Part shown: in pieces, positions 11,904 to 49,066 of the stretch
Position numbering within the stretch: position 1 is the stretch's first letter
Layout: every line of letters starts with the position of its first letter
Source: a virus
Length of the DNA stretch: 49,066 nt
Direction: 5' to 3' (one strand)
IMG/VR virus record: IMGVR_UViG_3300025151_000057
Location: 1-49,066 of that record
Program-made: the position numbers and the translations under genes
The notes under the pieces: generated by a model
What the model was told of the DNA's origin: nothing
Databases searched by the model: none
The model's input: only the letters and a program-made list of their open reading frames with translations

Positions 11904-11970
11904 CGGTTCGTGACCGTTTCTCCAGAGCCTCCCTTGCAGTTCCTTCCATCTCCAAGGGAGGCTCACTTTT
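11902..11970 (+). terminator. Tandem hairpins after the head genes
   Basis: AACGGT/ACCGTT (11902-11907 and 11913-11918) overlaps the stop codon and is followed by a perfect 12-bp stem, GAGCCTCCCTTG/CAAGGGAGGCTC (11925-11936 and 11953-11964), then ACTTTT. The T-run is short, so it may only reduce read-through or protect the upstream 3' end, giving high head-gene and lower tail-gene levels. Confidence 0.7.
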
Positions 11971-36700: not shown

Positions 36701-39700
36701 GGAGAAGAAAAGAAAAAGACTGTAAAAGACAGTGTTCGTGGTATGGTTTCGTATTTAAGCCAATACGGGCTGGATAAGCATGCCGCTGTCACCCTGAAAA
36801 TGGGCCGCAGAAGCCCTGTAGGAGTTAATCAGGCAGACAAAGATGCAGCAAGGTTTGCCTTGGATGAGCTGTTCACCATGAACTCAGACAACAATAAATT
36901 TGTTCGTGAGGTTAAAGATACAGTCGTTGATCCATTGAAGAAGTATTACATGGAAAACGGCACTAGAGAGATGGGGAAAATGACAGAAGAAGAGGCAGGG
37001 TATCACGCACAAGATGACCTTGGATTCTTTCTGTTCAGGCAAAGAGTTGTCAATGGAGATCGACAAGACAAGGCAAACCCCTTTGCAACTACCCCGACAT
37101 CGGCAAAGCAAGACTTAGTAAACATGGAAGCTAGGCTTGGCACAGATGCTTACGATGAGCTTCAAAAGCTTGCTTTAATGTTTCACGATCTTGTTTTCGA
37201 GGCGAGCGAAAATGCTGTGGCAGAGGGCGTGTATAGCCAGCAAGCAATGGACGAGATCATTGAACCAAACAGGGATTACTATGCCGCGTTTAGGGTTACA
37301 AAGTACATAGAAGACCCAATGTACATCCCAGCTGGAATAATGAAGCAAGTTGGTACGTTTGATGGCGTTGAAAACGTGTTTCATTCAACCATGCTTAAAG
37401 TTGTCTCCTTGAATCGTTTGACAAAGCTTAATAAGGCTAAAAACAGAGTCAGAGTTTTCTTGCAGAACAATTTTCCAGACGAAATAACAAAGGTCCCGAC
37501 TTATTACGTCGGGCCAGGCAAACCAAGGGAGCCAAAGGGGAAACCGAAAGCTGGTTACGAACGAATAGTTGAGCTTGTCGATGGCAAGCCTGTTTGGTGG
37601 GAAGTTGATAAGTCTATTGCAAAGTCGTTTGAAACGTCAGATATAGGCGGTCTTGATACAGTAGTCGGAGTCATGAACTCATGGACCTACAAGGCTTTTC
37701 ACCCGTTGTTTGTGACGTACAACCCTGGCTTTATTATTAAAAACCCAGTAAAAGACCTTCGCCGAACGTATGTCAACCTTGGTTCAATTTACAAGGTCAG
37801 CATGCTGGAATTGTTCGCCGAGCAGATCAAAGCTGTGCCAGCTGCGTATCGTCGCACGAAGGGCATCCTTGATCCAGTTGTAAAAGACATGCTGGACTCT
37901 GCGGCAATTGATATTCCGTTTGTGGGAAGAGATGCTGGCAAGCGGATGTTGCAAAGTGAGGAAAACAGCCTAGTTGCCTACGACAACATGCTTAAAAATG
38001 CAGGGCTGATGGAGGTACGCAAAGGGCGGCTGGAAAGCATTCCGTACCTTGGAAGAGTTTTCAGGGCAATTGAAGCAGCTGGAGAAATTACTGAAACAGC
38101 CACCAAAATCGCTGGTTGGCGGGTAATGGAAAAACGAAATGTTCCAATTCAGGAAAGAGCGTTTAACGTGCGAGCTTACGTGGGAACACCTGATTATAAG
38201 AAATCGGGTCTTTTCACCTCGGTTACTAACGGTGTTTTTATGTATTCACGGGTCAAGTGGAACGGCCTGCAAGCCGACATGAACCTTGCTACGCACTCGG
38301 ACACTGCTTCGGGGTGGTGGTGGAGACAACTCATTACAACGATCATGCCAACCTCGTTTACTAAGCTTACAGCCTATGGCGGGGGATCGGCGTTAATGTA
38401 CTTCATGCTGGGGCTTGATCCAGATGACGAAGAGGATATGGACAGCTTTTTAGGTCAGACCGTTTTGTGGTTCCATGAAAACTACAGGCGATACGGTTCG
38501 TACTGGACGCGGGCCTATGATTCAATACCGCTTGGACTTGACGAAGAATCTAAGGCTTTGTTTCTTTCAATTCCTCGCGACGAAACAAGCAAGCTGGTTG
38601 CAACGGCTTACGACCATTTCACAGATTTAATAATGCTGGGCCTTGGGCAGGACATTAAATCGGGAAAAACCACAGGGCAAGTTGCCGGTGATCTTTTTGC
38701 AGGGGTAACTTGGGATGCAGCGGCTCCTTCGTTGTCGCCCACACTTTTAATGTTAGCAAAAAATGGTCAATATTTGCTCGACAAGCAGCCGTATGATGAT
38801 TTTAGAGACAGGTATATTGTTCCTGATCTCCATTGGCAGGCAGGCGGGCATCATGCCGCACTTAAAATGCTTCAATGGAACATACAGCAATTTGGTGCGC
38901 CTGGACAAGCAGTTGGGTATCTCATGGACCTGGCTGAAGGAGATGCGGCTGAAACTACAATTTCCGAAGCTGCTTTAGAGGCGGCTGGTGCGTTGACTGG
39001 CATTGGATCTTTAATTCGACGTACTGATACGGGCTTAAAGGCTGAAGAATACGCAAGGATTGAAGTGCAGCAAAGGCATGACGCTCAGTTTAGATTGAGT
39101 CTAGGTTATAAAGCCTATAGCTTGGCAACTGAGCTTAATACGCTCAACCGAAAGGAAAAGTCAACAAGTCTTGGGTTAAACGAAAAAGACAGAAAGCGAA
39201 AATACGACCTAGCTTTGTATGGAAACTATGTTTACGAGCCAGCTAGAATGGCTATCAGAGAGGCTGATCTTGCAGCAGACACACAAAAAGGAAAATCGTT
39301 ACGCAAAAAACTGCTAAATACAGCCGAGTTAGCAGACAAAGGCCAGCTGCCTACGCTGGCAAAGTTTGATGCAGACAAAAAGGATGACATCACATGGGGT
39401 TTGTCTAATGCTGCGTACAAAGGAGCAACAACTCCCCCAGAAAGAAAAAACTATACAACCGATGGGGGCTTTGAAAAGTCTGTTGCAGAATACAACGAGA
39501 ACCAAGATGCTATGATCGAAAGAATGAAGCATTTCTTTCCAACGGAAAAAGAAGCGATAGATGCGTTAATGTATCATTTCCGGTTTGATAGGGTCGACGA
39601 CAACGGCAAACCGACCAGAAATAAGTACCAAATTAAGTATTTAGAAGCATACGACAAACGCAGAAAACAAATAATTCGGATTTATCGCACTCCAAACAAA

Positions 39701-39718
39701 GGACTTAAGCAAAAGTAG
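27737..39718 (+). CDS. Giant polyvalent internal virion protein (3,993 residues)
   Basis: One uninterrupted frame of 11,982 bases, about 24% of the genome. Order: Gln/Pro-rich start with QQQAP repeats (residues 60-75); an Ala/Gly-rich hydrophobic region (about 342-500) that may enter membranes; HEVAHQ at 1100, a zinc-protease-like motif; a DUF6884-like domain (about 1352-1475, VCLIGCAAKKFKGW); Glu/Gln-rich acidic linker (about 1975-1995); coiled coils (about 2090-2160); HEIGH at 2791 with a possible third ligand in PAELYAEA near 2910; a motif FVTYNPGFIIKNPVKDLRR near 3324 that I read as an LPD38-type region; helical C-terminus. This domain salad fits phage 'polyvalent' proteins, which are packaged and injected with DNA. 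It starts five bases after the previous stop. Confidence 0.8.
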   Translation: MQDQQNNQQNAMQQRLMQARDLYKQKTGVDFESKPEDAGPAVAVAEPPVVEKQAPKPEAIVPQQQAPQQQAPQQQMSATDLFQQRAIERWNKKVDAEESFKLESKFYRKDRKEKPEQEMPKEGEYFLDADGQLRRRESGRFYPTPEQEKGRTLQDKKEEEIRKRNMEIGNFSKVVPDSYISPDTEAERTRRLDKELKEYWAKKKGTAPLETPEIPEGMYMGLDGLGHYYNTDTRVSKEEFKKANPDVDIDRIQGEYFAGIMQEAKEDQLKFTGKGSAISGDEQSWGGYLGSKTPWIGSAMEIGALLALKPHFDAIEDGTATRRDYVVAGRYLAELEKEEGKGWWRGVGDIVADMPAFMIEFAAAGGGVATTTAKKGLKTAIESSAKMTAKELLKAGGKVAAKGAAKIGKVTLKQPHRIAEAAVRESMPEPTYDEATGRITFEGGSDNWARNVVRGTLDTGIETASEMSGGYTAGLIGKAMSGAVKPVKKVLDKVAPKTIKGAPKPARLDKKMWTHEIAAFQMKARVALQKKINKVANPKVREGIQKVFNAGGYNGIIEEYGEERLAELLRKATALSEYTDLDTDLGQTGEFFQGAFDVATAGNWQKLGDFGYHSAQQLAAFSVFPAGSMAAEGLSALDRAPSGREWRKLVLGTDTDGYFPSRKVRKQQWEATKKAQEAMRAGSAPISRVPVSAKIPGLVDTRPEAIEDKPDVIDHGKDVPTRQLYDAEGKPYTPKAVVKERAEKARKAAQQKQTESRAAEGTVRLSPEAAAVKRRQEVEEYKKSKVAKQAAAEREKLRAEKKDRLDKLPAEDKQWIKDTEDLIKSNPIFEGSEVDIDIVDGKKTATVTREDDRSVVFHYDKARTDRMIWNPKPMAGAPKGQIHLTSDASHTDINKQAIPWLVAEGVVSQEEIQAYPNLAQDYAKWANKRSLKKAKMEKATPLQKVFQKIYDFLEPIFTLQSSLFKDLEKRRSKSLMTDEMQEAIHVAQDAFLAKSLRGKTPPSMPGSKKPPKQPQTYRSGKPRPVWNPREPATKAEQKVADFMKARGKKFAFLDTPREATEPAGVHMTDSGYVFLFQGLADEVNRDFLSGKNLLWNVLGHEVAHQTKLDAAMPYNSKFYRARRKQWLKLNSKLDAYREFAENAGELDPSIPRKDWSYEEQQIGKEVQATLAGEFMSNPFFRKMLKQKEPGVYEKLKKKILQSVNSWGPKDQAKEMVLAEFRKTKGEKKPVEKKPLTAEQMQIISKAFKDKEKNDKLNPKPTGKFAEKNPDLIKKHFRTVDDFNEAAFDYMMMLDADQMKREMEREEGKKKSAGLKEKVLQGQKTLKDQSLKEYYQNHPHRKLIPTREEDVVEVCLIGCAAKKFKGWHKGIDLYDSRPFKQNVEYAEGTGMPWGILSAKFGFMDPYREYHDYDAELDTQEKRNAFGPKAVERVYEHLKNLGVDVENRQIKFTITAPKNYAKAFEDSRDFTHEVEIPMQGMGQGKRNQWLTEQIKEQKERKSLLEKDPVDSQMLADNLAAIEREEARRKAEAKKRQMPDYFTKDDNDNNQSFIEMLDQISREDPKQYNKAIREPLQDFMLGIKTPENSEVAKLEGSQLDSLAQSLTNPVQEWLFDWNQENLPMLQLDTVEKLAKALAVELNKTQTKQIPFSDYVPAKRKDEVYELLLTDFISGSGLPIPLMRAVRAVAPKITDDANFKNYHDAIIGRKGGLYKDKFKPTDPVAKDVVGQLVDKGDYLEIPEGLTLDSTAKYSDEQTALYDKAIIAIKLADTALKEANKSGLSFAEEAGEAAQNYLDDIEIKNKENKKLGLPAVNDPYEGDWSYLAETIEQFLYKNSGLEDKGDYIEIPFGFDFLRPTTLNHITPDIELQAGEAADLAEKLYVQHANEMPIENIADIADEEVMADIGVLLDTLYMEEFNETPWSEDADLEDFDRDPWDWNVEDRDAVADKIELTVFNYYKKLVKAKQDPTELESYEVPEEEQVEEEQEEEQVEREQGEEPQIYTDEDGNIKYDRLSDTALYRGITNGGRLDNQESRKEFAKRGVNYGGVQVYIGYDEFPIGADKKGGYGKWIDSKQKVGDAKDSLSKAIKKYASQLDKLIVKEAEKLGVPKGRGKLGLSKAKKYLEMLKKAEETAEKNPKLDKLRNEIEQAEQELEKAAGADEKAEYEFYSGIDTADVDWKKERPDIDFIGTEFLEGKKLVRLKGLTKGFHMDYHSHKMFYADKVKLGKFDKKKLKYEVMDLQGNPIGFLSRWEIANDYMTEEQAEEQRILEADHLQATIESQKLKDSKKPKKKPVKKVTLKQARESIRKEDPASSWFAGLRIEAKKVKAKAVKDIEFSEERFGRIPKSTLEYFDGKVQAWQYSGIKVGDTRSPKWASINAHYEEDKVKKGVEYTQIKTKKHLMYIPDAEGSESKKEERKAFYVGTFDNLLDAKHFAVMVERLGVVTHKAFVGEMSDDMKAEQSKMQAVYETFVQMRTNKNFDTDILEKAFVREIDTKRLESISPYMPDPEIEADIYLDAIDLGDQGLRHRMSKVGLAKVKELANIAPEFSFNPVFVVNQDYDLEFQGFTNFKFRLDLFNLDVDELKVGQTVGINLPSIGVKKITNQSVAEEKIIKLLKGFAAFSDSEAREIISKIPFDSKKLQNEILDRQGKLEQASVDYNRMQAREKVRIAKEQQLPDDSPDIRSTYQIRPPSKGLKAKPQGSPPRVPQPGSKGLKPQGPLSNAAIKQLFGLQGPELYKIAKILMAGGPLDVKKLRGAHGMFRYEVGTTNMDILINPTTAENEQALLQTLAHEIGHLIDYVPELLALSKKNNKGNLLARLEVLNNMLSKQQGFLPYMVEKDRRKIKRQAEKQAGPGASRETIQRIYEDMLIAQGILPLTRIRRELIEVTKAWSGDYTGLPKWYVNYRESPAELYAEALSMFLNSPGDLESMAPTFYNALIDYMNRNPEFLDAYSDVQLMMNGSDKDLSAQRTADLRKMFRDAGAHIHALGEEKKKTVKDSVRGMVSYLSQYGLDKHAAVTLKMGRRSPVGVNQADKDAARFALDELFTMNSDNNKFVREVKDTVVDPLKKYYMENGTREMGKMTEEEAGYHAQDDLGFFLFRQRVVNGDRQDKANPFATTPTSAKQDLVNMEARLGTDAYDELQKLALMFHDLVFEASENAVAEGVYSQQAMDEIIEPNRDYYAAFRVTKYIEDPMYIPAGIMKQVGTFDGVENVFHSTMLKVVSLNRLTKLNKAKNRVRVFLQNNFPDEITKVPTYYVGPGKPREPKGKPKAGYERIVELVDGKPVWWEVDKSIAKSFETSDIGGLDTVVGVMNSWTYKAFHPLFVTYNPGFIIKNPVKDLRRTYVNLGSIYKVSMLELFAEQIKAVPAAYRRTKGILDPVVKDMLDSAAIDIPFVGRDAGKRMLQSEENSLVAYDNMLKNAGLMEVRKGRLESIPYLGRVFRAIEAAGEITETATKIAGWRVMEKRNVPIQERAFNVRAYVGTPDYKKSGLFTSVTNGVFMYSRVKWNGLQADMNLATHSDTASGWWWRQLITTIMPTSFTKLTAYGGGSALMYFMLGLDPDDEEDMDSFLGQTVLWFHENYRRYGSYWTRAYDSIPLGLDEESKALFLSIPRDETSKLVATAYDHFTDLIMLGLGQDIKSGKTTGQVAGDLFAGVTWDAAAPSLSPTLLMLAKNGQYLLDKQPYDDFRDRYIVPDLHWQAGGHHAALKMLQWNIQQFGAPGQAVGYLMDLAEGDAAETTISEAALEAAGALTGIGSLIRRTDTGLKAEEYARIEVQQRHDAQFRLSLGYKAYSLATELNTLNRKEKSTSLGLNEKDRKRKYDLALYGNYVYEPARMAIREADLAADTQKGKSLRKKLLNTAELADKGQLPTLAKFDADKKDDITWGLSNAAYKGATTPPERKNYTTDGGFEKSVAEYNENQDAMIERMKHFFPTEKEAIDALMYHFRFDRVDDNGKPTRNKYQIKYLEAYDKRRKQIIRIYRTPNKGLKQK
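27920..27961 (+). repeat. 15-bp in-frame tandem repeat (QQQAP)
   Basis: The unit CCGCAGCAACAGGCT occurs twice (27920-27934, 27935-27949) and partly a third time to 27961, coding for a Gln/Ala/Pro spacer. Being a multiple of three, copy-number changes would alter linker length without breaking the frame of the giant gene. Confidence 0.85.
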
Positions 39719-39996: not shown

Positions 39997-41065
39997 AGAA
40001 AGGCTTACTCACAGTCGGATGCAGTCTTTTAAGCTGTGCCGCAAAAAGCACTACTACGAATACGAAGTAGGCATAAGGAAAGAAACCGACGCGAAGGCGT
40101 TGCGAATGGGCCATGCTGGTCATGAAGGCTTGGATCAGTTGAAAAAGACCAACCTGATTGATGTGGCTTGCCAAGCCGTTAAAGACGAGTACAAAAATTG
40201 TCCACCGGAAATATCTCAGTATGACTGGGAGATTGAAGAACAGACAGTTTTAACTCTTCTCGAAATGTACAATTGGTACTGGCACTATTGGTCTTTGAAT
40301 GAGCATGAGCCGTTTAATGTAATTGTTTCAGAGGCATCATTTGACTTTCCGCTTCGCAACCCAAAAACAGGGTACGCGGCAAAAAACTTTGATAGAGCTG
40401 GCAAAATTGACGGCATTATCAAAAAGAACGGAAGGAAGCTTGTCCTGGAACATAAGTTTCTGGGCGAGGACATTAGCCATGGTGGCAGCTTTTTTGAAAG
40501 GCTTCGCTTGGATCAGCAATGCACAAACTACGTTGATGCAGCCAACAGCCTATTCGACAATGTTGATGGCGTGTTGTACGATCTGATTCGCAAGCCGACG
40601 ATTCAGCCAACCGCAATTCCTGTGCTGGACGAAGACGGCAAAAAGATTGTCTTAGATTCAAGCGGAGAGCGTGTTTACAACAAGGACGGCAAAACCTATC
40701 GCCAGTCAGCAGACAAAAAGCTTGGCTACGAGATTGTCACTCGGGATATGACCGTTGAAGAGTGGGGCCTGAAGCTTGCAGTTGACATTGAAAAACGGCC
40801 CGACTTTTATTTCCAGCGTCATGAAATAGCTCGCTTGGAAAGCGACATACAGGAGTTTCGTGAGGAAGTCTGGCAAATACAGCTGGATATTAGAAGTCAC
40901 CAGCGGTCTGGGAACTGGTACAAGACGGTTAACAAAGGCAGCTGCACGTACTGCCCCTTTACCTCGTTGTGCTTAAATAGGTCACAGATCGACAAAAACA
41001 CTCAGCCCTACGATTACCCTGAAGGGTTTGTCAAGCTGGAAGACGTGCATCCGGAGTTGGGCTAA
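39989..41065 (+). CDS. PD-(D/E)XK nuclease with Cys cluster (RecB/Cas4-type)
   Basis: A 358-residue nuclease. The catalytic core has Asp141 in GKIDGI and the ExK pair at Glu154-Lys156 in VLEHKF. Four cysteines (17, 319, 322, 328; the last three in CTYCPFTSLC) are laid out as in Cas4/AddB-type enzymes, where they hold an iron-sulfur cluster. It probably trims double-strand ends to make single-stranded tails, which the Sak4-like ATPase and SSB-like protein encoded downstream would use. The start overlaps csrA by eight bases and the stop overlaps the next gene by one base. Confidence 0.85.
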   Translation: MTKERLTHSRMQSFKLCRKKHYYEYEVGIRKETDAKALRMGHAGHEGLDQLKKTNLIDVACQAVKDEYKNCPPEISQYDWEIEEQTVLTLLEMYNWYWHYWSLNEHEPFNVIVSEASFDFPLRNPKTGYAAKNFDRAGKIDGIIKKNGRKLVLEHKFLGEDISHGGSFFERLRLDQQCTNYVDAANSLFDNVDGVLYDLIRKPTIQPTAIPVLDEDGKKIVLDSSGERVYNKDGKTYRQSADKKLGYEIVTRDMTVEEWGLKLAVDIEKRPDFYFQRHEIARLESDIQEFREEVWQIQLDIRSHQRSGNWYKTVNKGSCTYCPFTSLCLNRSQIDKNTQPYDYPEGFVKLEDVHPELG

Positions 41066-41484
41066 TGTTGTTTGATAAATTTTCACAAAATGACCCAAAG
41101 CCATTGGATGCAAAGTTTGATGGCAGTGATTACGACGACAAGGTGGACCGCCGAAGACTGGCCGGTCAGATCTTGCGAGTTTATGAGTGCATGAAAGATG
41201 GTCAGTGGCGAACGGTAAATGAGGTTCATCAAGTTACCGGCGACCCACACGCTTCTATCAGCGCACAGTTGAGGAATTTACGGAAGCCTAAGTTTGGTTC
41301 ATATAATGTTGTGAAACGAATCAGAGGTGAACGAAAAGATAGTTTGTACGAGTATCAGCTTTTAACCCAAAAAGGAACTTTAGAATGTCAACAGCACCAA
41401 AGTCAGTTGCAAGCCGGCCAGCCAAAAAATACGCCGAAGGCCACCGTCCCCAAGCAGCTAAAACGCCAGCTGTCTCAGGAGTAG
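41065..41484 (+). CDS. Winged-helix DNA-binding protein
   Basis: A 139-residue protein. Residues about 35-95 form a winged helix: helix RRLAGQILRVYECMKDG, recognition region TVNEVHQVTGDPHASISAQLR, and a wing with RIRGERKDSLYEYQ. The C-terminal 40 residues are Gln/Lys/Pro-rich and are encoded in the 100-base overlap with the next gene. Position within the recombination operon suggests a regulator or an end-binding factor. Similar small winged-helix proteins are common in phages without known targets. Confidence 0.75.
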   Translation: MLFDKFSQNDPKPLDAKFDGSDYDDKVDRRRLAGQILRVYECMKDGQWRTVNEVHQVTGDPHASISAQLRNLRKPKFGSYNVVKRIRGERKDSLYEYQLLTQKGTLECQQHQSQLQAGQPKNTPKATVPKQLKRQLSQE

Positions 41485-42263
41485 TCAAGGGCGTGGTTTC
41501 CAATCAAGGCGAAAGGATTGGAATTTACGGAAGTGGAGGCATCGGGAAAACCGAGCTGGCCTCTTCGCTGGCTAAAGTCGGAATAGATCCGCTGTTTATT
41601 GATCTCGATCAGGGAAGCATGGGCCTTGATGTAGCCAGGGCAGTGTCGGGGGAAGATCAGCACCTTACAAGAACTTACCAAGAGGTTCGAGATGTGCTGC
41701 AAAACCATGAGTTGGTCTCCCAGTTTGGGGCCGTAGTGATCGACACGTTTACGACTCTTGAGGACAGGATTCGCGATCACGTCATTGCGACGGTTCCTCA
41801 CGAAAAGGGCAAAAAGATTAGCTCGATCGAAGATTATGGCTTTGGAAAGGGCTTGTCTCATGTATTTGACCAAGCACTTTTAATTCTCAGCGATCTTGAG
41901 GCAGTTTGCCGGCTGGGTGTGCATGTTATTGTCATTTGCCATCAAGTCTCAGAGAAGGTTCCCAGTGTTGAATCGGAAGACTTCTTGGAATACCAGCCGC
42001 GTTTGCAATCTCCAGCAAAGACCGCAAAGCTTCGGGAACGCATGTTTGAGTGGTGCAACCATTTCTTCCGAGTTGACTTCGATCGTTTTGTTGACGGCGG
42101 TAAGGTTGCTTCGACAAACAAGCGAAGCATTCATACTGTCAAGACAACAACGGCGTGGGCCAAGCATCGGACAATGCCAAACGGCAGGCAGTTTCCCGAG
42201 TTAATTGATTTTGAAAAAGGCTCGTTTGGTTTGTGGGACATTATGTTTGGAGGTGCAGAATAA
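41385..42263 (+). CDS. Sak4-like RecA-fold ATPase (recombination)
   Basis: A 292-residue ATPase. Walker A is GSGGIGKT (residues 49-56) and Walker B is AVVID (116-120), followed by the Thr-rich switch TFTT. A conserved late segment reads VHVIVICHQ, the sensor-like strand of RecA-type AAA_24/Sak4 proteins, which anneal single strands and aid recombination. It starts 100 bases inside the winged-helix gene, with AAAGGAACTTTAG as the ribosome site. The N-terminal 40 residues are basic and disordered. It ends in a one-base overlap with the next gene. Confidence 0.85.
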   Translation: MSTAPKSVASRPAKKYAEGHRPQAAKTPAVSGVVKGVVSNQGERIGIYGSGGIGKTELASSLAKVGIDPLFIDLDQGSMGLDVARAVSGEDQHLTRTYQEVRDVLQNHELVSQFGAVVIDTFTTLEDRIRDHVIATVPHEKGKKISSIEDYGFGKGLSHVFDQALLILSDLEAVCRLGVHVIVICHQVSEKVPSVESEDFLEYQPRLQSPAKTAKLRERMFEWCNHFFRVDFDRFVDGGKVASTNKRSIHTVKTTTAWAKHRTMPNGRQFPELIDFEKGSFGLWDIMFGGAE

Positions 42264-42622
42264 TGGTTTCAAATAACACTCCCCCAAAGGGCGGCGTAGT
42301 TGACACCCCTGGCGAAGTAAAAAGAGCTGCCGTTGACGTGCTGAAGACGTTTAAAGATGCCTTGCACGAGCAGCATCATTTAGGCAGCGATCTTGAGAAT
42401 TTGCGAATGATTAGCAATGTCGCTTATAAGTATTCAGAAGAAGTTGAGCAGGAGTTTCTGGAGATTGCTCGCCGACGACACGTTTTTGGCGGGCGAGACG
42501 ATGAACAAGTATCTGGCGATTCAGAAAAGTCAATTGAGTTTATCGTTACAAAGATTGGTGCAGCAATTGTGCAGATTTGGTGTTCGGATTTGCATATTAA
42601 AATACAAGCTGAAGACAATTGA
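42263..42622 (+). CDS. Hypothetical protein in recombination operon
   Basis: A 119-residue helical protein with no recognised domain (KRAAVDVLKTFKDALHEQHH in the first helix). ATG 42263 follows GGAGGTGCAGAAT and overlaps the ATPase stop. It is the last gene before a strong terminator-like stem. Possibly an accessory of the recombinase, by position only. Confidence 0.7.
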   Translation: MVSNNTPPKGGVVDTPGEVKRAAVDVLKTFKDALHEQHHLGSDLENLRMISNVAYKYSEEVEQEFLEIARRRHVFGGRDDEQVSGDSEKSIEFIVTKIGAAIVQIWCSDLHIKIQAEDN

Positions 42623-42713
42623 ACAGCTGTTGGATGCTTGCCCGGGCTACCTCACGGATACCATCGGAGGATAGGCTGTCACAGGAAACGACGGCGGTCT
42701 GGGCAGGTTTTTT

Positions 42714-42800
42714 ACGAAGTGGGTGGTTTAAGTAGTCTTTGATTATGGTCAAACAGTACGCTTAACTAAATTCCACCCACTTCGTTTTTTATTTTTTTTT
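42714..42800 (+). terminator. Long-loop intrinsic terminator
   Basis: A perfect 13-bp stem, ACGAAGTGGGTGG (42714-42726) and CCACCCACTTCGT (42773-42785), is followed by a run of 15 bases that are all T except one A. The 46-base loop contains a second pairing near its ends (TTTA/TAAA). It resembles the 2292-2365 element in having a long loop with inner structure. The SSB-like gene begins just downstream. Confidence 0.9.
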
Positions 42801-42813
42801 AAATAAGGATTTT
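42801..42813 (+). promoter_or_regulatory. Leader element AAATAAGGATTTT upstream of SSB-like gene
   Basis: Exact copy of the 13-base leader found before the major capsid gene. It directly follows the T-run of the terminator and provides the AAGGA ribosome site. With no obvious promoter between, the SSB-like gene must be read by transcripts escaping the terminator or from a start hidden in the stem region. Confidence 0.45.
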
Positions 42814-42816
42814 GTG

Positions 42817-43347
42817 ATGCCATACATTGAAGAAGCAGGAACATTTCGTGGTGAGATCGTAGCCTACGGAGCCGAGGAAAAGGATTCTGGAAGTGTTGCT
42901 GTTAAGATTGAAGTTTTAATTAGCGATCACTTTGCCAATGGAGTTTGGAACGATTGGTCTGAACACAACATGATTGCAACTGGCCGAGTCTGGCTGATTG
43001 GCAAGAACGGCAAGATTATTAAGCGAAATGCTGAAGCACTTATGAACTATGCTGCGTGGGACGGCACTTTTAAGTCAATTACTGATGGAAACTGGGAGCC
43101 AGACAAGGTTGGAATTACTGTAAAAGGTGAGGAATACCCCGAAGGATCTGGTAAAATTTTCTACAGGATCGAATGGATTAATCCCTTTGAAAAGAAAAGT
43201 CACGCTGGCAATGGAAACTTTAGCACTGAGAAAAGCAATGCCCTGGATTCCAAGTACGGAAGCCAGCTGCGTGGCCTTGCTTCGGTTGCTAAGCCTAAGC
43301 AAGCTCCAAAGCCAAGTGTAGCAACCGATCCTGACATTCCATTTTAA
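42817..43347 (+). CDS. Single-stranded DNA-binding-like protein
   Basis: A 176-residue protein with an OB-fold-like beta sequence (GTFRGEIVAYGAEEKDSG, then VAVKIEVLISDHF) and an acidic tip ending DPDIPF, the hallmark of SSB proteins that recruit partners through the C-terminus. It resembles the DUF669-type phage SSBs in size. It would coat single strands made by the nuclease for the Sak4-like ATPase. ATG 42817 is preferred over the GTG at 42814 because spacing from AAGGA is better. Confidence 0.8.
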   Translation: MPYIEEAGTFRGEIVAYGAEEKDSGSVAVKIEVLISDHFANGVWNDWSEHNMIATGRVWLIGKNGKIIKRNAEALMNYAAWDGTFKSITDGNWEPDKVGITVKGEEYPEGSGKIFYRIEWINPFEKKSHAGNGNFSTEKSNALDSKYGSQLRGLASVAKPKQAPKPSVATDPDIPF

Positions 43348-43359
43348 AGGAGAGTAGCA

Positions 43360-43584
43360 ATGCCAAGACCAGAATTAACTGGGCCAATCTCAGAGAAGGA
43401 AGCGCAGGAGCTTCGAGAATTTATCTTCATGAGACGGAGGATTGAAGAGCTTGAATCGCAATTGCTCAGAAGCCGACAAATGGCAGATATGTACTGGAAG
43501 ATGTACGAAGAGCTGATGCTGAAAACGCGATCGGAGCGACCTCTTTCGGCTGGTGAGCTAACCCTCGCGGAGGGTCCTCTATGA
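43360..43584 (+). CDS. Small helical protein
   Basis: A 74-residue Arg/Glu-rich helical protein (ELREFIFMRRRIEELESQLL) with a likely short coiled coil. The ATG follows AAAGGAGAGTAGCA, and the stop overlaps the next ATG in ATGA. Function unknown. Confidence 0.7.
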   Translation: MPRPELTGPISEKEAQELREFIFMRRRIEELESQLLRSRQMADMYWKMYEELMLKTRSERPLSAGELTLAEGPL

Positions 43585-44009
43585 AACGCGAAATTGCTCC
43601 CGAGGATGTTGAGCTTGTTTTTAGTTTTCATCATAAGCATCACCCACGGGAAAAGCTAAATGCTGAAAAACGAAAGTTGATTCGCCAACGGTTGAAGGAA
43701 GGTTACACGATTGCAGACTTGCGAAAAGCAATTATTGGAATCCACAACACGCCCCACAATCTTGGTCACAACGAAAGAAGAACAAAGTACCTTGGTTTGC
43801 ACGTTTCGCTCAGACATGAAAACGTAGATCGTTTTATTGAAACGGGAGAACAAGTCATTGAACGTAAAGAAAAATTAAAACGGAAAAGGAGAAATAAGAA
43901 CGCGAAAAGCTCGCTACCGATTGCGGAAAAACAAGAGATGTCCCAAGAAGAGCGAGACAAAGAAGCAGCTGAGTTTAGGGCTATGGTGAGAAAGGAGTTG
44001 CAGAAGTGA
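43581..44009 (+). CDS. Replication-associated protein with Phg_2220_C-type domain
   Basis: A 142-residue protein. Its first 90 residues match, from memory, the conserved C-terminal domain found in phage replication-initiation proteins: a helix VELVFSFHHKHH, the central KRKLIRQRLKEGYTIADLRK and a terminal RTKYLGLHVSLRHENVDRF. Here that domain stands alone rather than at the end of a larger protein. The last 50 residues are basic. It probably helps load host replication proteins on phage DNA. ATGA and GTGA overlaps join it to both neighbours. Confidence 0.75.
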   Translation: MKREIAPEDVELVFSFHHKHHPREKLNAEKRKLIRQRLKEGYTIADLRKAIIGIHNTPHNLGHNERRTKYLGLHVSLRHENVDRFIETGEQVIERKEKLKRKRRNKNAKSSLPIAEKQEMSQEERDKEAAEFRAMVRKELQK

Positions 44010-44260
44010 TTCCACCACAGCCAAACACCGACAAATGGGGCAGGCGAGGGTCGCGGATCAAAGATAGCAATCTTGTTCGCGACTTTTGCCGCATTTGTGC
44101 TGAACCCATCAGGGTTACGGATATTGGATTCGGGTCAAGCTCTCCAGCTTGCAATCGTTGTTCAGACGAAGATCGCATGCGACCGTGGAGCCAGGGCAGC
44201 TGGAATAAGTTTGTTTATTTAACAGACAAAGAGTACCACGGAGATTTCTACTACGGATGA
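44006..44260 (+). CDS. Small zinc-ribbon protein
   Basis: An 84-residue protein, GTG start inside the previous stop (GTGA). It has CRIC at about residues 29-32 and CNRC near 50, a four-cysteine zinc ribbon. Basic N-terminus (GRRGSRIKDSN). Likely nucleic acid binding; its stop overlaps the following nuclease-like gene in ATGA. Confidence 0.75.
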   Translation: MIPPQPNTDKWGRRGSRIKDSNLVRDFCRICAEPIRVTDIGFGSSSPACNRCSDEDRMRPWSQGSWNKFVYLTDKEYHGDFYYG

Positions 44261-44613
44261 CTCCAACGCAACGCACACTTAAACGATTTAGAGCAGCTGG
44301 CTATCATTGCGAGGTCGTTGAACGCTGGTGTCAATTCTCTAAGAGGCGAAAAGATCTGTTTGGGTTCATTGACATTCTGTGCATCAAGCAAGGCCGGATC
44401 GTTGGAGTTCAGGCTACCAGCGGCGGCAATGTGCCAGCTCGTATTAAAAAGATCGAAAGCGAGCCAAACGCTCAAAAGTTTCTGGATGCCGGTGGTGTTA
44501 TCTTAGTAGTTGGCTGGCGACCACTAGTTGCAAAAAAAAAGGACGGCACAAAAGCGCGCCGTCCTCGTTGGGCTTGTCGGGTTAAGCGGGTTCGATCAAT
44601 CCCTCACGTTTAA
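44257..44613 (+). CDS. Resolvase-like PD-(D/E)XK fold protein, altered active site
   Basis: A 118-residue protein of Holliday-resolvase size. It has a helix, a strand with an acidic residue (FGFIDIL) and a strand RIVGVQATS, matching a PD-(D/E)XK fold, but the usual ExK is replaced by Gln-Ala-Thr. It may use a variant site or be inactive. The last 30 residues are basic. A leftward terminator is encoded within its 3' end (44532-44564). It is the last rightward gene and converges with the leftward array, overlapping the next gene by 32 bases. Confidence 0.6.
   Translation: MTPTQRTLKRFRAAGYHCEVVERWCQFSKRRKDLFGFIDILCIKQGRIVGVQATSGGNVPARIKKIESEPNAQKFLDAGGVILVVGWRPLVAKKKDGTKARRPRWACRVKRVRSIPHV
44532..44564 (-). 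terminator. Intrinsic terminator of the leftward unit, inside a + strand gene
   Basis: On the minus strand, the stem GGACGGC/GCCGTCC (44541-44547 and 44558-44564) is followed by nine T residues (A-run 44532-44540 on +). It lies 17 bases after the stop of the leftward gene at 44582. The same bases code for KKKDGTKARRP in the + strand gene, so one sequence serves both. Confidence 0.9.
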
Positions 44614-44833
44614 GTATTCGCTGGATCTGTTGAGGATGCCAGTTAGTTCCCTTACGTGTGGGGATCTTTTCGCCGTTCAGCCAACGAGCAATTGCGTTGT
44701 AACTATCGCCAGCTTTGTATCTCTCCCGTATGGTGTCGATCGTAGCGATCTCTTCGTAGTCCTTCACAGATTTTAATCTGTTTTCAGGGTCAGGCTTAAG
44801 GCCGTAGGGCCGGTCATTTGTTGTCTTAGGCAT
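44582..44833 (-). CDS. Small protein with recombinase-type DNA-binding segment
   Basis: An 83-residue protein. The segment AIARWLNGEKIPTRKGTNW followed by QIQRILKREG is the helix-turn-helix-like pattern of the 'recombinase' domain of large serine recombinases, but no catalytic serine domain exists here, so this is a stand-alone DNA-binding protein. The start is the ATG at 44833 after AAGGAAAATAGCA. It overlaps the preceding leftward gene by eight bases and is followed by the unit's terminator. A regulator is the simplest reading. Confidence 0.8.
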   Translation of the reverse strand: MPKTTNDRPYGLKPDPENRLKSVKDYEEIATIDTIRERYKAGDSYNAIARWLNGEKIPTRKGTNWHPQQIQRILKREGLIEPA

Positions 44834-45074
44834 TGCTATTTTCCTTGTTAAATATTTGATTGTAAATTGATTCCAGCCGCTTTCCAAAGCGAACGAATGC
44901 ATCAATCCGCTCATCTCCAGACAGCGGCAGGCCGTCAGAGTTTATTAACTCGGCGGCATACCACTTTCCGTCAATTGCAAGCGGGAGCATAGCCATGAGC
45001 TGCTTGGCCTCGGCTTCAGTGTCAACACTAAACGCTGGCAAAAATCCATCGGGACACACGGTCCCGTATCGCAC
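44826..45074 (-). CDS. Hypothetical protein
   Basis: An 82-residue protein, unrecognised (FSVDTEAEAKQLMAMLPLAI, then KWYAAELINSD). The start is uncertain: GTG at 45074 has no good ribosome site, but an in-frame TGA lies four codons upstream and no better codon precedes. Its end overlaps the next gene by eight bases. It may be coupled to the 21-codon frame just upstream. Confidence 0.6.
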   Translation of the reverse strand: MRYGTVCPDGFLPAFSVDTEAEAKQLMAMLPLAIDGKWYAAELINSDGLPLSGDERIDAFVRFGKRLESIYNQIFNKENSNA

Positions 45075-45083
45075 CTCAACCGC

Positions 45084-45149
45084 TCAGTAAATCTTCCATT
45101 TGCGATCAGTGTTGGGCAAGTCGCTAAAATTGTAATGTCGCTTTACCAT
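45084..45149 (-). CDS. Very small ORF (21 codons)
   Basis: ATG at 45149, stop at 45084, coding for MVKRHYNFSDLPNTDRKWKIY. AAAGGGG lies eight bases upstream, and the ATG overlaps the preceding gene's stop. It fills the gap exactly between two genes, with nine bases to the GTG of the next. It may be a peptide or a translational link that re-initiates ribosomes. Support is spacing and ribosome site only. Confidence 0.4.
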   Translation of the reverse strand: MVKRHYNFSDLPNTDRKWKIY

Positions 45150-45535
45150 CCTTGTTTCCCCTTTATTCTATTGCATGGCTTTCCAAGATCAGGCAGCACA
45201 GTGTTCTCGATCCAGTTGAATAGGCTTTTGCTAAGGTCGCTTAGGTCACCGTCGATCACTCGCTGTTCCATGTTTAGGCTCTGCCCAACGAAGTATGAGT
45301 GGCAATTGTCATAGCTTCTGTTCGGTCGGTGATCCCAAACCTTGGTAAAGAAAAACCAGCTGCAATCTTCGTAAGTGCCATAGCCTGGCCCGACCTGGCC
45401 GACACAGCCGAAGCTGATTCCTACTTCCGGATAATAGTGATTGAGCCAATCACGCAAAACGTAATAAGACTTGGTTTCGCGTTGATCGCTGTGATCCTCA
45501 ATTCTTACCATCGTAGTGTTATTTAGTAATTTCAT
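45143..45535 (-). CDS. Hypothetical protein rich in aromatics and cysteine
   Basis: A 130-residue protein with no recognised family (SYYVLRDWLNHYYPEVGISF, later YEDCSWFFFTKVWDH). I use ATG 45535, seven bases after AAGGAGATTGAAT, rather than the TTG at 45541 that abuts the ribosome site. Ends overlapping the 21-codon frame. Probably one of the accessory early genes. Confidence 0.75.
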   Translation of the reverse strand: MKLLNNTTMVRIEDHSDQRETKSYYVLRDWLNHYYPEVGISFGCVGQVGPGYGTYEDCSWFFFTKVWDHRPNRSYDNCHSYFVGQSLNMEQRVIDGDLSDLSKSLFNWIENTVLPDLGKPCNRIKGKQGW

Positions 45536-45644
45536 ATTCAATCTCCTTGTTTGGGTTAAGTTCGTATTTAGCTAGGCCGCACACCGCCGCAGTGAACGCT
45601 GCGAGCATGGTGACGACCACAAATATTTTTATTAGAGTTTTCAC
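45519..45644 (-). CDS. Small membrane peptide candidate
   Basis: A 41-residue frame from GTG 45644 to the stop at 45519. The first 25 residues (KTLIKIFVVVTMLAAFTAAV) form a single membrane or signal segment followed by a polar tail. It begins 15 bases after the previous stop and overlaps the next ATG by 17 bases, which supports it, but a ribosome site is not visible. A holin-like or membrane accessory role is possible. Confidence 0.45.
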   Translation of the reverse strand: MKTLIKIFVVVTMLAAFTAAVCGLAKYELNPNKEIEYEITK

Positions 45645-45659
45645 GTTAGTGTTAATCCG

Positions 45660-45854
45660 TTAGTTGTTGTGATTTGCGGGGCCGTCGGAATATGTTTCCA
45701 CTTGCTCGACCCCGCTATGGTCCGTCCAAAATAAAAGAGCCGAGACAATGTCCTGGTCAATCACGTATGCTCGACACCACTTGCGTTGGTTGTCCACGGA
45801 TCCGTGGTGCGTTAAATCGTGTTGGTCGCCGTTGAGCATTTGCAAACGGATCAT
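45660..45854 (-). CDS. Hypothetical protein
   Basis: A 64-residue protein, unrecognised (MIRLQMLNGDQHDLTHHGS at the start, many His, Asn and Asp). The ATG at 45854 overlaps the previous stop in ATGA, the reason for choosing it over a GTG further upstream. Function unknown. Confidence 0.65.
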   Translation of the reverse strand: MIRLQMLNGDQHDLTHHGSVDNQRKWCRAYVIDQDIVSALLFWTDHSGVEQVETYSDGPANHNN

Positions 45855-46273
45855 AAGGCCCACACTGCGCACAGATCGTCTTTCGACACCGTCACCTCAT
45901 CATTGCCAATTCGCAGATCAAAACCAAATGCTATGTCGCACACTGCATCCTGAAGATCGCTGTAAAGATCGGAGTCGCGGATCAACATCTCGACCGGCCC
46001 TGACTCAACTTTTTGCACACCATTGCAAAAATACCGAACGCGGTACACATACCCCTCGTTGCAGATTCTTCCTTCAATTTCGCATTCCCAAAACACTTTA
46101 AGCGACACAACGCATCGCGGGTTGGTCCTGGCTTGCTCGGCAGCTGCGAATAGAGGTTCGGCTGCTTTTTGGATGTTCTTGGCAATTTCGCCCAAAGAAT
46201 CGTGTTCAACAAAATAATTGATTAAGCTGTGCAGCGTGCTTTCGTTTTGCAGATCGGTTTCGTTTAATTTCAT
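45851..46273 (-). CDS. Hypothetical protein (cassette gene)
   Basis: A 140-residue protein, mixed alpha/beta, no recognised domain (EIAKNIQKAAEPLFAAAEQAR; ends with DLCAVWAL). ATG 46273 is preceded by TTTTGGAGCGAATT; the same octamer GGAGCGAA precedes four other genes of this array. A terminator-like hairpin sits just upstream of the leader. It ends in ATGA with the next gene. Confidence 0.75.
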   Translation of the reverse strand: MKLNETDLQNESTLHSLINYFVEHDSLGEIAKNIQKAAEPLFAAAEQARTNPRCVVSLKVFWECEIEGRICNEGYVYRVRYFCNGVQKVESGPVEMLIRDSDLYSDLQDAVCDIAFGFDLRIGNDEVTVSKDDLCAVWAL

Positions 46274-46283
46274 AATTCGCTCC

Positions 46284-46314
46284 AAAAAAAAGGCCGGACA
46301 CAAACCCGTCCGGC
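46284..46314 (-). terminator. Hairpin and T-run directly before a ribosome site
   Basis: On the minus strand GCCGGAC/GTCCGGC (46293-46299 and 46308-46314) is followed by eight T residues, and GGAGCG begins immediately after. The layout is a full intrinsic terminator sited between two genes that are otherwise in one unit, with the next gene's leader touching the T-run. Confidence 0.85.
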
Positions 46315-46331
46315 ATGGGTAAGAATTTTAG

Positions 46332-46673
46332 TTAGTACATAATCGACAGGTTTGTAAATAGGTCCGGAACAAACGGCGTGTTCGGATCTTTGCAAACGAC
46401 CTCGTACAGATCCCGCTTAATCGACTTGGTTTGTCCGTTGTAAACTGGAAAGTTCATCACGTCGTAGATCTTGCCGTCCAGCTGGACATAGCAATAGCTC
46501 AAGTCGAATACGGTCCAGCCCTGAACGTAATCAGCGAGATAGCGTAGTCGCACGATCCGGCCCTTACGACCGGCCCGTAGTGCATCCAGAAAATCATCCC
46601 AGTGCAGCCGCTCATCCTCAAGATTGTCAGTGTCGAAGGTTGTACCCCAGTCGTGGAATATCTGTGTTGTCAT
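46332..46673 (-). CDS. Hypothetical protein (cassette gene)
   Basis: A 113-residue protein, acidic and aromatic-rich, unrecognised (TTQIFHDWGTTFDTDNLEDE near the start, ends LSIMY). ATG 46673 follows TTTGGAGCGAACA; an upstream ATG 12 bases earlier overlaps the ribosome site and is rejected. Followed by the 46284-46314 hairpin. Confidence 0.75.
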   Translation of the reverse strand: MTTQIFHDWGTTFDTDNLEDERLHWDDFLDALRAGRKGRIVRLRYLADYVQGWTVFDLSYCYVQLDGKIYDVMNFPVYNGQTKSIKRDLYEVVCKDPNTPFVPDLFTNLSIMY

Positions 46674-46686
46674 TGTTCGCTCCAAA

Positions 46687-46725
46687 GTAAAAAAACAAAG
46701 AATGCCGGTCGGACCGTATCCGGCA
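46687..46725 (-). terminator. Hairpin and T-run before a cassette gene
   Basis: On the minus strand TGCCGG/CCGGCA (46703-46708 and 46720-46725) with an 11-base loop is followed by T-rich ATTCTTTGTTTTTTT. The next ribosome site GGAGCG follows within a few bases. Same arrangement as at 46284-46314 with a different loop. Confidence 0.7.
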
Positions 46726-46741
46726 GTAGGTCATGAGTGGA

Positions 46742-47014
46742 TCAATCCCACATGGCTTGGCCCGTGAGGACCAGGGCGGGGCCAAATATATGCTGGCCCG
46801 TCATGAGTGAGGCTGTTTCATTGTATCCCAGCTCCAACAGGATCCCCTCCTCGTTTACCAGCATTTGCATTGGCTGATCTTCAATCAACTCCGGCAGCAA
46901 CTCAACAAACTGGACAAGCCCACCGACGATCGCTTGCGCCTCTTCTAGCGTGGGCCGTTTATCTGTCATTTTGGTGATCTGCGTGAAATTGTGGTTAGTT
47001 ACTTGATAATTCAT
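46742..47014 (-). CDS. Hypothetical acidic protein (cassette gene)
   Basis: A 90-residue protein, acidic, helical in its middle (TLEEAQAIVGGLVQFVELLP). ATG 47014 follows ATTTGGAGCGAATT. It resembles small phage proteins that bind host factors in size and charge but no family is recognised. The stop is followed by the 46687-46725 hairpin. Confidence 0.75.
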   Translation of the reverse strand: MNYQVTNHNFTQITKMTDKRPTLEEAQAIVGGLVQFVELLPELIEDQPMQMLVNEEGILLELGYNETASLMTGQHIFGPALVLTGQAMWD

Positions 47015-47040
47015 AATTCGCTCCAAATAGGTAAAAAGTG

Positions 47041-47073
47041 AAAAAAAGGCCCCGCGCCCGATAGGCTCAGGGC
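47041..47073 (-). terminator. GC-rich hairpin with T-run before a cassette gene
   Basis: On the minus strand GGCCC (47069-47073) pairs with GGGCC within GGGGCC (47047-47052), with further inner pairing GCC/GGC, and is followed by a run of T residues. A second T-rich stretch and then TTTGGAGCGAATT lead to the ATG at 47014. It is the third of four such junctions. Confidence 0.7.
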
Positions 47074-47096
47074 CATGAGATTGGGTTCAAACCGTA

Positions 47097-47660
47097 TTAT
47101 GCATCACTCGGGACCATGTGCAGATCCCAACACGGACCGCAGATGCCGGTTTGCAGCTTCTCGCGATCGGTTACAGATAAATACGGCATAGCTTCCTGAA
47201 TTACTAGACCGTTGCGCCAGCGATCGTAATCTTCTCTGATCGTATGCACCTCGTCTGATCGGCTGCACATGGGGCATTGAGTAGGTACGGTGTGGTCCAT
47301 TCTGGCCCGATCCTTAATCTCGCGCCTAGCGTCGGCCCATTGATACAGCTGGGACCACGTACCACCAACTTCGATCTTAAGCCTATTAACCATTTGCATT
47401 GCACCACGGACAACGTCCGGCGCAAATTCACTCGGGAAGCCGAGGATCACAGCTGTGATTTCGCAATCTTCTTCGTACCATTCGCGACACCATACGGTCG
47501 GCATGCCACGGGCCTCCAGATTGTTTTGCCGATCGTCGGACAGCTGGTAACCACCATGAGTGGCGGTGGTGTGTGCGGTCACTCCGTCGATCACTGGGTA
47601 GATCCCTTGTGAATGCCCCCACGGTGTGTCGATTGTTCGTTCGTTCGTTCGTTCGTTCAT
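47097..47660 (-). CDS. Zinc-ribbon protein with tetranucleotide repeat after the start codon
   Basis: A 187-residue protein. The C-terminal third has CPMC and, about 40 residues later, CGPC, a four-cysteine zinc ribbon. The start is ATG 47660 after AAGGAGCGAATTAG; the first nine codons are made of six copies of GAAC (47635-47658), coding for MNERTNERT. Slippage there would shift the frame. The middle contains aromatic and acidic residues with no known fold. One of the GGAGCGAA cassette genes. Confidence 0.75.
   Translation of the reverse strand: MNERTNERTIDTPWGHSQGIYPVIDGVTAHTTATHGGYQLSDDRQNNLEARGMPTVWCREWYEEDCEITAVILGFPSEFAPDVVRGAMQMVNRLKIEVGGTWSQLYQWADARREIKDRARMDHTVPTQCPMCSRSDEVHTIREDYDRWRNGLVIQEAMPYLSVTDREKLQTGICGPCWDLHMVPSDA
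47635..47658 (-). repeat. (GAAC)6 tetranucleotide repeat at the 5' end of a gene
   Basis: Six perfect tetranucleotide copies (GTTC on the + strand) lie directly after the start codon of the 47660 gene. Four-base units are a typical substrate for replication slippage; any gain or loss not divisible by three would put the gene out of frame, as in phase-variable bacterial genes. Confidence 0.9.
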
Positions 47661-47694
47661 CTAATTCGCTCCTTGTTAAAACAAAAACTACCAA

Positions 47695-47719
47695 GCCGGA
47701 CCACCGACCAGGGCCGGTG
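47695..47719 (-). terminator. Hairpin before a cassette gene
   Basis: CACCG (47702-47706) and CGGTG (47715-47719) pair, or alternatively CCGGaCC (47696-47702) with GGgCCGG (47711-47717) around one mismatch. On the minus strand a T-rich stretch (TTTTTGTTTT) and AAGGAGCGAATT follow. Weaker than the others but in the same position and order. Confidence 0.6.
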
Positions 47720-47748
47720 ATGCGGTTTGGTTCCTCCTGCTAAGTTAT

Positions 47749-48435
47749 TTACTTCGCCCCCTTCAAAGCTACGAACGCAATATTCTTTCCAGCGTCCGGA
47801 CAGCACAACCGGCAGCTGCTGCAAGTGACCGACGGTTTAGCCCCATTTGCTTTCTGGAGGTCATAGGGGCATAACGTTTCATTGCGGGCCTTACTTGCGG
47901 GGTCGTCGATCACACGGGCCGTGTTCCAACCGGCTTCCTGCATTGTCTTGGCTTGCTCGATTGTGTCGACGCTTGCCAGGATTCCAAAATTGTCGGGCCA
48001 GCTGTCCGGACCGAATCCAGCCGCGTCGAGCTGTGGCGCGGCGTGGGTGTAACTCCAACCGACCGTATATCGTTGGGCCGGCATGCTGTGCCACTCAATC
48101 ACATCGCGAGCGTGATCTCGATCGACAACCCGCCGACCGTCCGCAGTAGGCTTAAGCCAGTCCCCGCCAGTTAGGTGACGGATGAGCGGGACCCCGTTTG
48201 CTTTTCTCAACGCGGTTGCTGTGCTGTGGTCCCCGTGCTTCTCGATTAGGCTAGGGTGGAATCGCATCCGGCCCCGATGAGCGTAGCAAGTGGGATCGTC
48301 CGGCCCTGCATTGTGTGGAAGCAGTGCGCAAGATCCCGGGCAAGTGGTCCCGACCTTACGGGCCGTCGATGCCACGCATGGCCCGAGCTTAGAATTGCCA
48401 CCAGCGATGGTGACGAGTGTTTTAGGTTTGTTCAT
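47749..48435 (-). CDS. Phage Gp88-like cysteine-rich protein
   Basis: A 228-residue protein that reads like the phage Gp88/DUF7227 type: start GGNSKLGPCV, then TTCPGSC, CYAHRGRMRFHP, HLTGGDW and YTHA, and a C-terminal Cys cluster (CPYDLQ, TCSSCRLCCPD). The regular cysteines at both ends suggest a metal or iron-sulfur centre. Biochemical activity is not known. ATG 48435 follows CAGGAGCGAATACA, the conserved leader. It is one of the largest leftward genes and lies in the most GC-rich part of the window. Confidence 0.7.
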   Translation of the reverse strand: MNKPKTLVTIAGGNSKLGPCVASTARKVGTTCPGSCALLPHNAGPDDPTCYAHRGRMRFHPSLIEKHGDHSTATALRKANGVPLIRHLTGGDWLKPTADGRRVVDRDHARDVIEWHSMPAQRYTVGWSYTHAAPQLDAAGFGPDSWPDNFGILASVDTIEQAKTMQEAGWNTARVIDDPASKARNETLCPYDLQKANGAKPSVTCSSCRLCCPDAGKNIAFVALKGAK

Positions 48436-48457
48436 TGTATTCGCTCCTGTGAAGTAA

Positions 48458-48547
48458 TTACTTGCGACCCAAGCGGATTAGATCGCACACGATCACCACT
48501 CCGGCCCCGATAAGGGCCAGATAGGTGACGATTGAAAATATGCTCAT
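48458..48547 (-). CDS. Small single-pass membrane peptide (29 residues)
   Basis: ATG 48547, stop 48458, coding for a peptide beginning MSIFSIVTYLALIGAGVVIV and ending in a charged tail (RLGRK). The ATG overlaps the preceding stop in ATGA, a strong sign of real coupled translation. One membrane helix and a basic end make a membrane effector likely, for example an inhibitor, signal or holin-like peptide. Confidence 0.65.
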   Translation of the reverse strand: MSIFSIVTYLALIGAGVVIVCDLIRLGRK

Positions 48548-48756
48548 GCGATCACGTCCAATCGGTCGGCTTTGCCGATGATCTCGACGCGAAATCGGTC
48601 CGAAGCGTAAAGCATACGGGCCAGCCGGCTGTCGATGATGTCGAACAGCTGCAAACGCGTCGGGTAAGTGGCTCTGGTTTGGTCGATTGACTCGACTCGC
48701 CACCAACTCGGCTCTAGGTGGTGTCTGCGGATCTTGATCACGATTTGATCGCCCAT
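48544..48756 (-). CDS. First leftward gene, small basic protein
   Basis: A 70-residue basic protein (MGDQIVIKIRRHHLEPSWWR at the start), probably beta-rich, unrecognised. ATG 48756 follows CAGGGAGCTAAGACC. It is the first gene after the leftward promoter and overlaps the small membrane peptide, so both are among the earliest phage products. Early basic proteins of this size often bind host factors, but no motif shows it. Confidence 0.75.
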   Translation of the reverse strand: MGDQIVIKIRRHHLEPSWWRVESIDQTRATYPTRLQLFDIIDSRLARMLYASDRFRVEIIGKADRLDVIA

Positions 48757-48798
48757 GGTCTTAGCTCCCTGTAAGGTGTGATAGGTGTGAAGAAATAA

Positions 48799-48826
48799 AG
48801 TCTAGTGATTCACTCGACGCGGTCAA
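48799..48826 (-). promoter_or_regulatory. Sigma-70-type promoter for the leftward unit
   Basis: On the minus strand TTGACC (48826-48821, five of six -35 bases), a 16-base spacer and TAGACT (48804-48799, four of six -10 bases). An AT-rich stretch (TTATTTC) follows the -10 box, and the first ATG is 43 bases below it. Host polymerase could use it without a phage factor. Confidence 0.55.
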
Positions 48827-48839
48827 TGCCGCTGGTCCA

Positions 48840-48858
48840 GCAAAATCCCGATTTTTGC
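48840..48858 (-). promoter_or_regulatory. Inverted repeat, operator candidate
   Basis: GCAAAATC and GATTTTTGC form an imperfect palindrome of 19 bases just upstream of the leftward -35 box. The spacing suits an activator or repressor site. The small DNA-binding protein at 44582-44833 is an obvious but untested partner. Confidence 0.4.
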
Positions 48859-48967
48859 GGTTGTGATAGCAAGTGGACGGAGCGCGGGCCGGCTGCGGAT
48901 CTGGTGGGCCGGTCCGGTGGTGGGATAGCAGCAGCTGCTGACCTGTCCCGGCCACCGACCTCAATCC

Positions 48968-49066
48968 CGCTCGGGATCCCGAGGACCACGGGCCAGCTGT
49001 GCGTGCGTGTGTGTGTGGTCGATCGGTGGTGGATCCGTGTGTGTGTGCGTGGTGTGTGTGTGCGTG
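48968..49066. repeat. Terminal direct repeat, right copy
   Basis: Identical to bases 1-99 over its full length. It should be removed from one end when the circle is closed. Confidence 0.95.

Follow-up and report, generated by a model that had tools for sequence, protein, structure and literature searches.

The right-hand end of a 49,066-nucleotide virus record (IMG/VR record IMGVR_UViG_3300025151_000057; the whole stretch is referred to as the window) carries an array of small leftward genes that share an 8-base leader, GGAGCGAA, and in most cases have a hairpin and a T-rich stretch ahead of it. Bases 1–99 of the window are identical to bases 48968–49066, constituting an exact 99-bp direct terminal repeat; the window therefore holds the whole genome of the phage, whose circular map measures approximately 48,967 bp. 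The right-hand 4.3 kb runs leftward, and the terminase, structural, and recombination genes run the opposite way; the array is best read as a predicted single transcription unit, directed leftward, whose small genes are accessory or early. Five of its genes, all on the minus strand and named herein by their start positions, are central to this analysis: 48435 (47749..48435; 228 amino acids, DUF7227, PF23872), 47660 (47097..47660; 187 amino acids, DUF7007, PF22653), 47014 (46742..47014; 90 amino acids, DUF3846, PF12957), 46673 (46332..46673; 113 amino acids, no known family match), and 46273 (45851..46273; 140 amino acids, with a homologue in the distant relative G008 at L140:6103). Metagenome-assembled genomes of Puniceicoccaceae (55%), Brocadiaceae (30%), and Phycisphaerales (27%) contain relatives of the terminase, a hint that the host may belong to the superphylum of these groups.

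The identical 8-mer GGAGCGAA is located 2–4 nucleotides before the ATG of all five genes, as an earlier reading of the letters (the sequence-only reading) had noticed. The copies, all on the minus strand, lie at 48440..48447, 47665..47672, 47017..47024, 46676..46683, and 46276..46283 for genes 48435, 47660, 47014, 46673, and 46273, respectively, and only the first is without a hairpin. GGAGCGAA occurs seven times in the window vs 1.68 expected, a count reached in none of 100 shuffles. In the array region, the top sequence before ATG, GGAGNNNN, occurs five times, with a maximum of two in 2000 dinucleotide shuffles, and no second GGAG 8-mer before ATG recurs similarly. The remaining genes of the window have varied ribosome sites (AGGA, AAGG, or GGAGG). 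The sequence-only reading had further held that only GGAG is needed for ribosome binding and that CGAA is unexplained, which is a fair description. CGAA has no complement in the conserved tail of 16S rRNA, which was assumed for the host. It is unchanged in eight of eight orthologous comparisons, and the 2–4 bases between it and the ATG vary; the constraint is thus localized to the 8-mer. At gene 48435, the Shine-Dalgarno (SD) core is altered to GGAACGAA in the relative L007, and CGAA is retained. Pairing of CGAA with the U-stretch, or freeing of the SD from the U-stretch, was rejected as a general reason for this constraint because the effect on predicted SD openness is inconsistent: at some junctions, the SD is less open with native CGAA than with most of the 256 variants, and at other junctions it is more open. 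Possible causes are a bound factor, a ribosome-level effect, or spread of the leader by recombination.

A hairpin and a T-rich stretch, all on the minus strand, precede the leader at four of the five junctions (all but that of 48435), in agreement with the sequence-only reading, and their strength varies. Judged as intrinsic terminators, in which a GC-rich stem is followed at once by a T-run, two junctions are clear and two are partial. The 47014 junction is a strong canonical terminator, in which the hairpin (47048..47074; 11 pairs, −19.8 kcal/mol; d=46) is followed by the T-rich stretch TTTTTTTCACTTTTTACCTATTT (47025..47047), including TTTTTTT after the stem. The 46273 junction is also canonical, with a hairpin at 46293..46314 (8 pairs, −14.1 kcal/mol) and a T-run, CTTTTTTTT (46284..46292), that directly abuts the leader. 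The partial cases are the 47660 junction, where a hairpin of 17 pairs (47690..47731; −23.6 kcal/mol), kept in the close relative L147, precedes a broken T-stretch (47676..47689), and the 46673 junction, where a weak hairpin of 8 pairs (46703..46725; −8.7 kcal/mol) precedes the T-rich stretch TTCTTTGTTTTTTTACTTT (46684..46702), with the T-run offset from the stem. The hairpins had been described as lying right after the previous stop, which is loose for the 47660 junction, where the hairpin begins approximately 18 nucleotides past the preceding stop codon. The four hairpins are mutually unrelated in sequence, and Rfam covariance models of leaders, riboswitches, and attenuators gave no match in 40000–49066 at E ≤ 1.

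These features are conserved in two close relatives, namely the contigs L145 and L147 of metagenome 3300000117, which overlap by 78 identical bases and jointly span the array, and the contig L146. Hairpin, T-stretch, and leader are retained at every orthologous junction that either relative covers. In the comparison with L147, the four junctions are identical at 258 of 284 positions (91%) vs 296 of 530 third codon positions (56%) in the same four genes. Across the comparisons, eight stem pairs are altered and five of them are still scored as paired; among the three other changes, two are located where a stem ends or a loop begins, and the third is a gap in the alignment, after which the stem refolds without energy loss. 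Unpaired hairpin positions show no change in the comparisons with relatives.

Furthermore, the element is linked to the downstream gene. The 3300000117 relative has an additional small gene between the DUF7227 and DUF7007 genes, with the hairpin after that gene; the window is without this small gene, and hairpin and leader still precede DUF7007. An unused AGGAGG at 47732–47738, between the DUF7227 stop and the hairpin and near the place of the relative’s extra gene, may be a remnant of gene loss. The 46273 homologue of the distant relative G008 (L140) has an unrelated upstream neighbour, an unrelated hairpin, and a different leader; the hairpin, TTTTTTT, and the ribosome-binding site (RBS) abut its ATG, and the same succession also precedes other G008 genes with the leaders GGAGTCTCAAAGATG and GGGAGATTT. 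Retention of the element at orthologous junctions, and before the G008 homologue despite a different upstream gene, indicates that it is part of the downstream gene’s start. No copy of GGAGCGAA ahead of an ATG was present in the distant relatives’ records; the exact leader is thus lineage-specific, and the occurrence of the layout in G008 with other leaders indicates that the layout is wider than the sequence. Of the behaviour anticipated by the sequence-only reading, movement as cassettes is supported at two junctions, where upstream neighbours differ and the element stays with the downstream gene. The anticipated hairpin–T–leader–ATG succession before unrelated genes of related phages was recovered in part, since close relatives carry it before the same genes and the distant relative carries it before several mostly unrelated genes, with other leaders.

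A high sigma70-type score was obtained at the array head only, where a putative promoter (48799..48826, minus strand; TTGACC, 16 nucleotides, TAGACT) has a predicted transcription start at approximately 48792. Its score is matched by 2.1% of random same-length segments of the window, and the leader downstream of it, ACTTTATTTCTTCACACCTATCACACCT, is identical over approximately 28 bases in L007. At the four junctions, the scores of sigma70-type matrices are no better than random, with 51–94% of segments scoring as high, and the previously expected promoter per cassette is unsupported for sigma70-type promoters. Because the junction scores are random-like and no more than a few bases separate T-stretch and leader, there is no room between the two for a conventional promoter, and transcription of the distal genes would most likely arise by read-through that begins at the array head or inside upstream genes; read-through of partial terminators appears to be the simplest option left. 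The array is closed by a predicted terminator at 44541..44564 (minus strand; d=52), which is the strongest scored in the window and is kept in all relatives covering the site. This terminator lies inside the 3′ end of a convergent open reading frame (ORF; 44257–44613), such that the same bases would be both coding and terminator.

On balance, the array is probably expressed as a single leftward transcript that contains internal terminators, which are read through in part and each of which is fused with an extended ribosome site. This reading starts from what is observed, namely a layout that is conserved and tied to the downstream gene, and junctions devoid of sigma70-like promoters; it postulates partial termination, read-through, and a regulatory effect. 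The transcript would start at the sigma70-like promoter near 48,800 and end at the strong terminator at 44,541, and the 5′ element of the four inner genes would comprise a terminator-like hairpin, a U-rich stretch, the extended SD leader GGAGCGAA, and the ATG. RNA polymerase would stop in part at each hairpin, by which expression would be stepped down along the array, and partial termination would leave a protective 3′ hairpin on the upstream message. Read-through transcripts would expose a U-rich, start-proximal ribosome site, by which ribosomes would be loaded on the next gene. Internal operon terminators with read-through, at which partial pass-through sets different gene expression, are documented in other systems (PMC10450193; PMC6131387), and terminators can stabilize upstream mRNA (PMC11696848). 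Unlike those operon-internal terminators, the present ones, whose termination is predicted, lie directly against the ribosome site of the next gene, and a single leader is common to them all. Several points weigh against the read-through reading. Good terminators are present only at the 47014 and 46273 junctions, that at 46673 being weak, and the single-junction folds have modest z-scores of −0.85 to −2.6 relative to dinucleotide shuffles, so that the case relies on conservation and layout and on no single fold. In addition, junction conservation could derive partly from exchange between relatives, and a promoter for a non-sigma70 factor would be missed by sigma70-type matrices.

A tentative alternative, of rather low probability, is a purely translational module, in which polymerase would not be stopped, the hairpin would insulate the site from structure upstream of it, and the U-stretch and extended SD would recruit the ribosome. 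Protein S1 recruits the ribosome at U-rich leaders and offers a possible route. The T-rich stretch is kept long, sometimes interrupted, beside the SD and not strictly at the stem, and the element travels with the downstream gene, as such a module would have it; however, two of the hairpins have the textbook form of a terminator, the T-run adjoining the stem, and several junctions have a low predicted openness of the SD. RNA processing, in which an endonuclease would cut the U-rich strand after each hairpin to yield mRNAs that are monocistronic, end in a 3′ hairpin, and begin with a short, clean 5′ leader, fits the succession of 3′ hairpin, U-rich single strand, and SD. It also fits the occurrence of a hairpin immediately ahead of the RBS of gene 11983, a position within the structural operon across which transcription has to continue. 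This hairpin (11925–11964) is very stable (z −5.2) and has a counterpart with a T-run in G008. Processing nevertheless seems unlikely: no specific nuclease motif turned up, no model-based search for one having been made, and stems of 8–17 pairs are atypical of the long substrates of RNase III. It is similarly doubtful that GGAGCGAA, the terminator, and the U-stretch together form a recognition site of a phage-made or host factor, which would switch the array genes on together by joint antitermination and translation control and for which short start sequences would mark a cassette regulon.

The array element appears to be a compact expression element closely resembling the start-associated sequences (SAS) of other phages; BLAST of the array region against named phages gave no match. 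In cluster K mycobacteriophages, which offer the closest precedent, the SAS is a 13-bp repeat at the RBS of 11–19 non-structural genes per genome, is conserved beyond 16S pairing, and is accompanied in about half of the cases by an upstream inverted repeat, then termed extended SAS (ESAS; PMC3203893). In both systems, a short asymmetric repeat with a lineage-specific consensus is identical across genes and located a few bases before the ATG (PMC3203893; PMC11373665). The array has five copies at the RBS position, in one orientation (minus) and all before ATG, and the bases that do not pair with 16S rRNA, the conserved tail being assumed, are conserved (CGAA in 8/8). By contrast, the leader GGAGCGAA departs from the strict 13-bp SAS consensus GGGATAGGAGCCC, and its copies number five as against 11–19. 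The ESAS inverted repeat comprises 17 bp with a shared consensus and is unlike an RNA hairpin, whereas the four hairpins of the array are unrelated in sequence, pair as RNA, and end in T-runs. The layout at the start codon is thus the same, and the upstream part is different. A further, independent case is that of Microbacterium cluster EF phages, in which ten copies of a 13-bp RBS motif, GGGAAAGGACCCC, are all tied to a conserved sequence in the upstream gap (PMC7302621); that upstream element is a weak GTAGAG-centred motif, whereas the array has a hairpin with a T-run.

The ESAS is now read as containing SigA-like promoters (PMC11373665), a parallel for the proposal that each junction is a promoter for a phage or alternative factor with a start near GGAGCGAA (cf. 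the ESAS of Adephagia). This proposal is very unlikely for the array: no such promoter was found inside the element with the sigma70-type matrices, the only ones tried, the random-like junction scores and the mutually unrelated hairpin sequences argue against it, and no phage RNA polymerase was recognized among the proteins searched. N4-like hairpin promoters served by a virion RNA polymerase were considered and dropped because the 3993-amino-acid protein of the window has no RNA polymerase match. This protein, encoded by a giant ORF at 27737–39718, has DUF6884 and, weakly, M48 peptidase as its only matches and resembles a polyvalent protein with several domains.

Start-associated sequences have been known for more than 10 years in actinobacterial phages without explanation. 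The array provides an independent case from a phage group unrelated to these, whose terminase relatives are found in Puniceicoccaceae and planctomycete genomes, and the hairpins upstream of its leaders pair as RNA. This suggests that leaders shared among gene starts are not confined to mycobacteriophages and related phages. It additionally provides a small, well-bounded system for testing the role of non-SD bases and of the fusion between terminator and RBS.

The frequency of this fusion was determined in a set of mostly unrelated viral contigs, relatives included, fetched by the pattern TTTTTT-N(0-10)-GGAGCGAA-N(2-4)-ATG. A hairpin directly precedes the T-run at 44 of 99 GGAGCGAA sites vs 15 of 99 with the upstream 50 bases shuffled, and at 6 of 13 sites with other GGAG leaders; a terminator fused to the ribosome site of the next gene is therefore an ordinary phage feature, and it is also present before probable structural genes of this phage group. 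What sets the array apart is a run of four successive junctions of this kind, all with the same leader. Coincidence of tight packing, in which the upstream gene’s terminator would adjoin a locally favoured RBS with no joint function, would account for so common a fusion but can be given hardly any credence for the array, where hairpin, T-stretch, and CGAA are strongly conserved and a change of upstream gene does not part the element from the downstream one. GGAGCGAA is a fairly frequent RBS context in this set, which was selected for it, and no claim for it as a universal phage start is made. The viral contig L025, with four hairpin–T–RBS junctions that all lie on the same strand and include one GGAGCGAA leader, is a possible second array of the same kind.

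Two further small proteins are encoded in or beside the array. At its end, an orphan protein of 83 amino acids (44585–44833) matches the Recombinase domain (PF07508) and phage integrases; it is too short for a catalytic domain and is retained at the array end in relatives. Near the array head, a hydrophobic peptide of 29 amino acids (48458–48547), whose ATG overlaps the stop of a 70-amino-acid gene (ATGA), is retained in L007.

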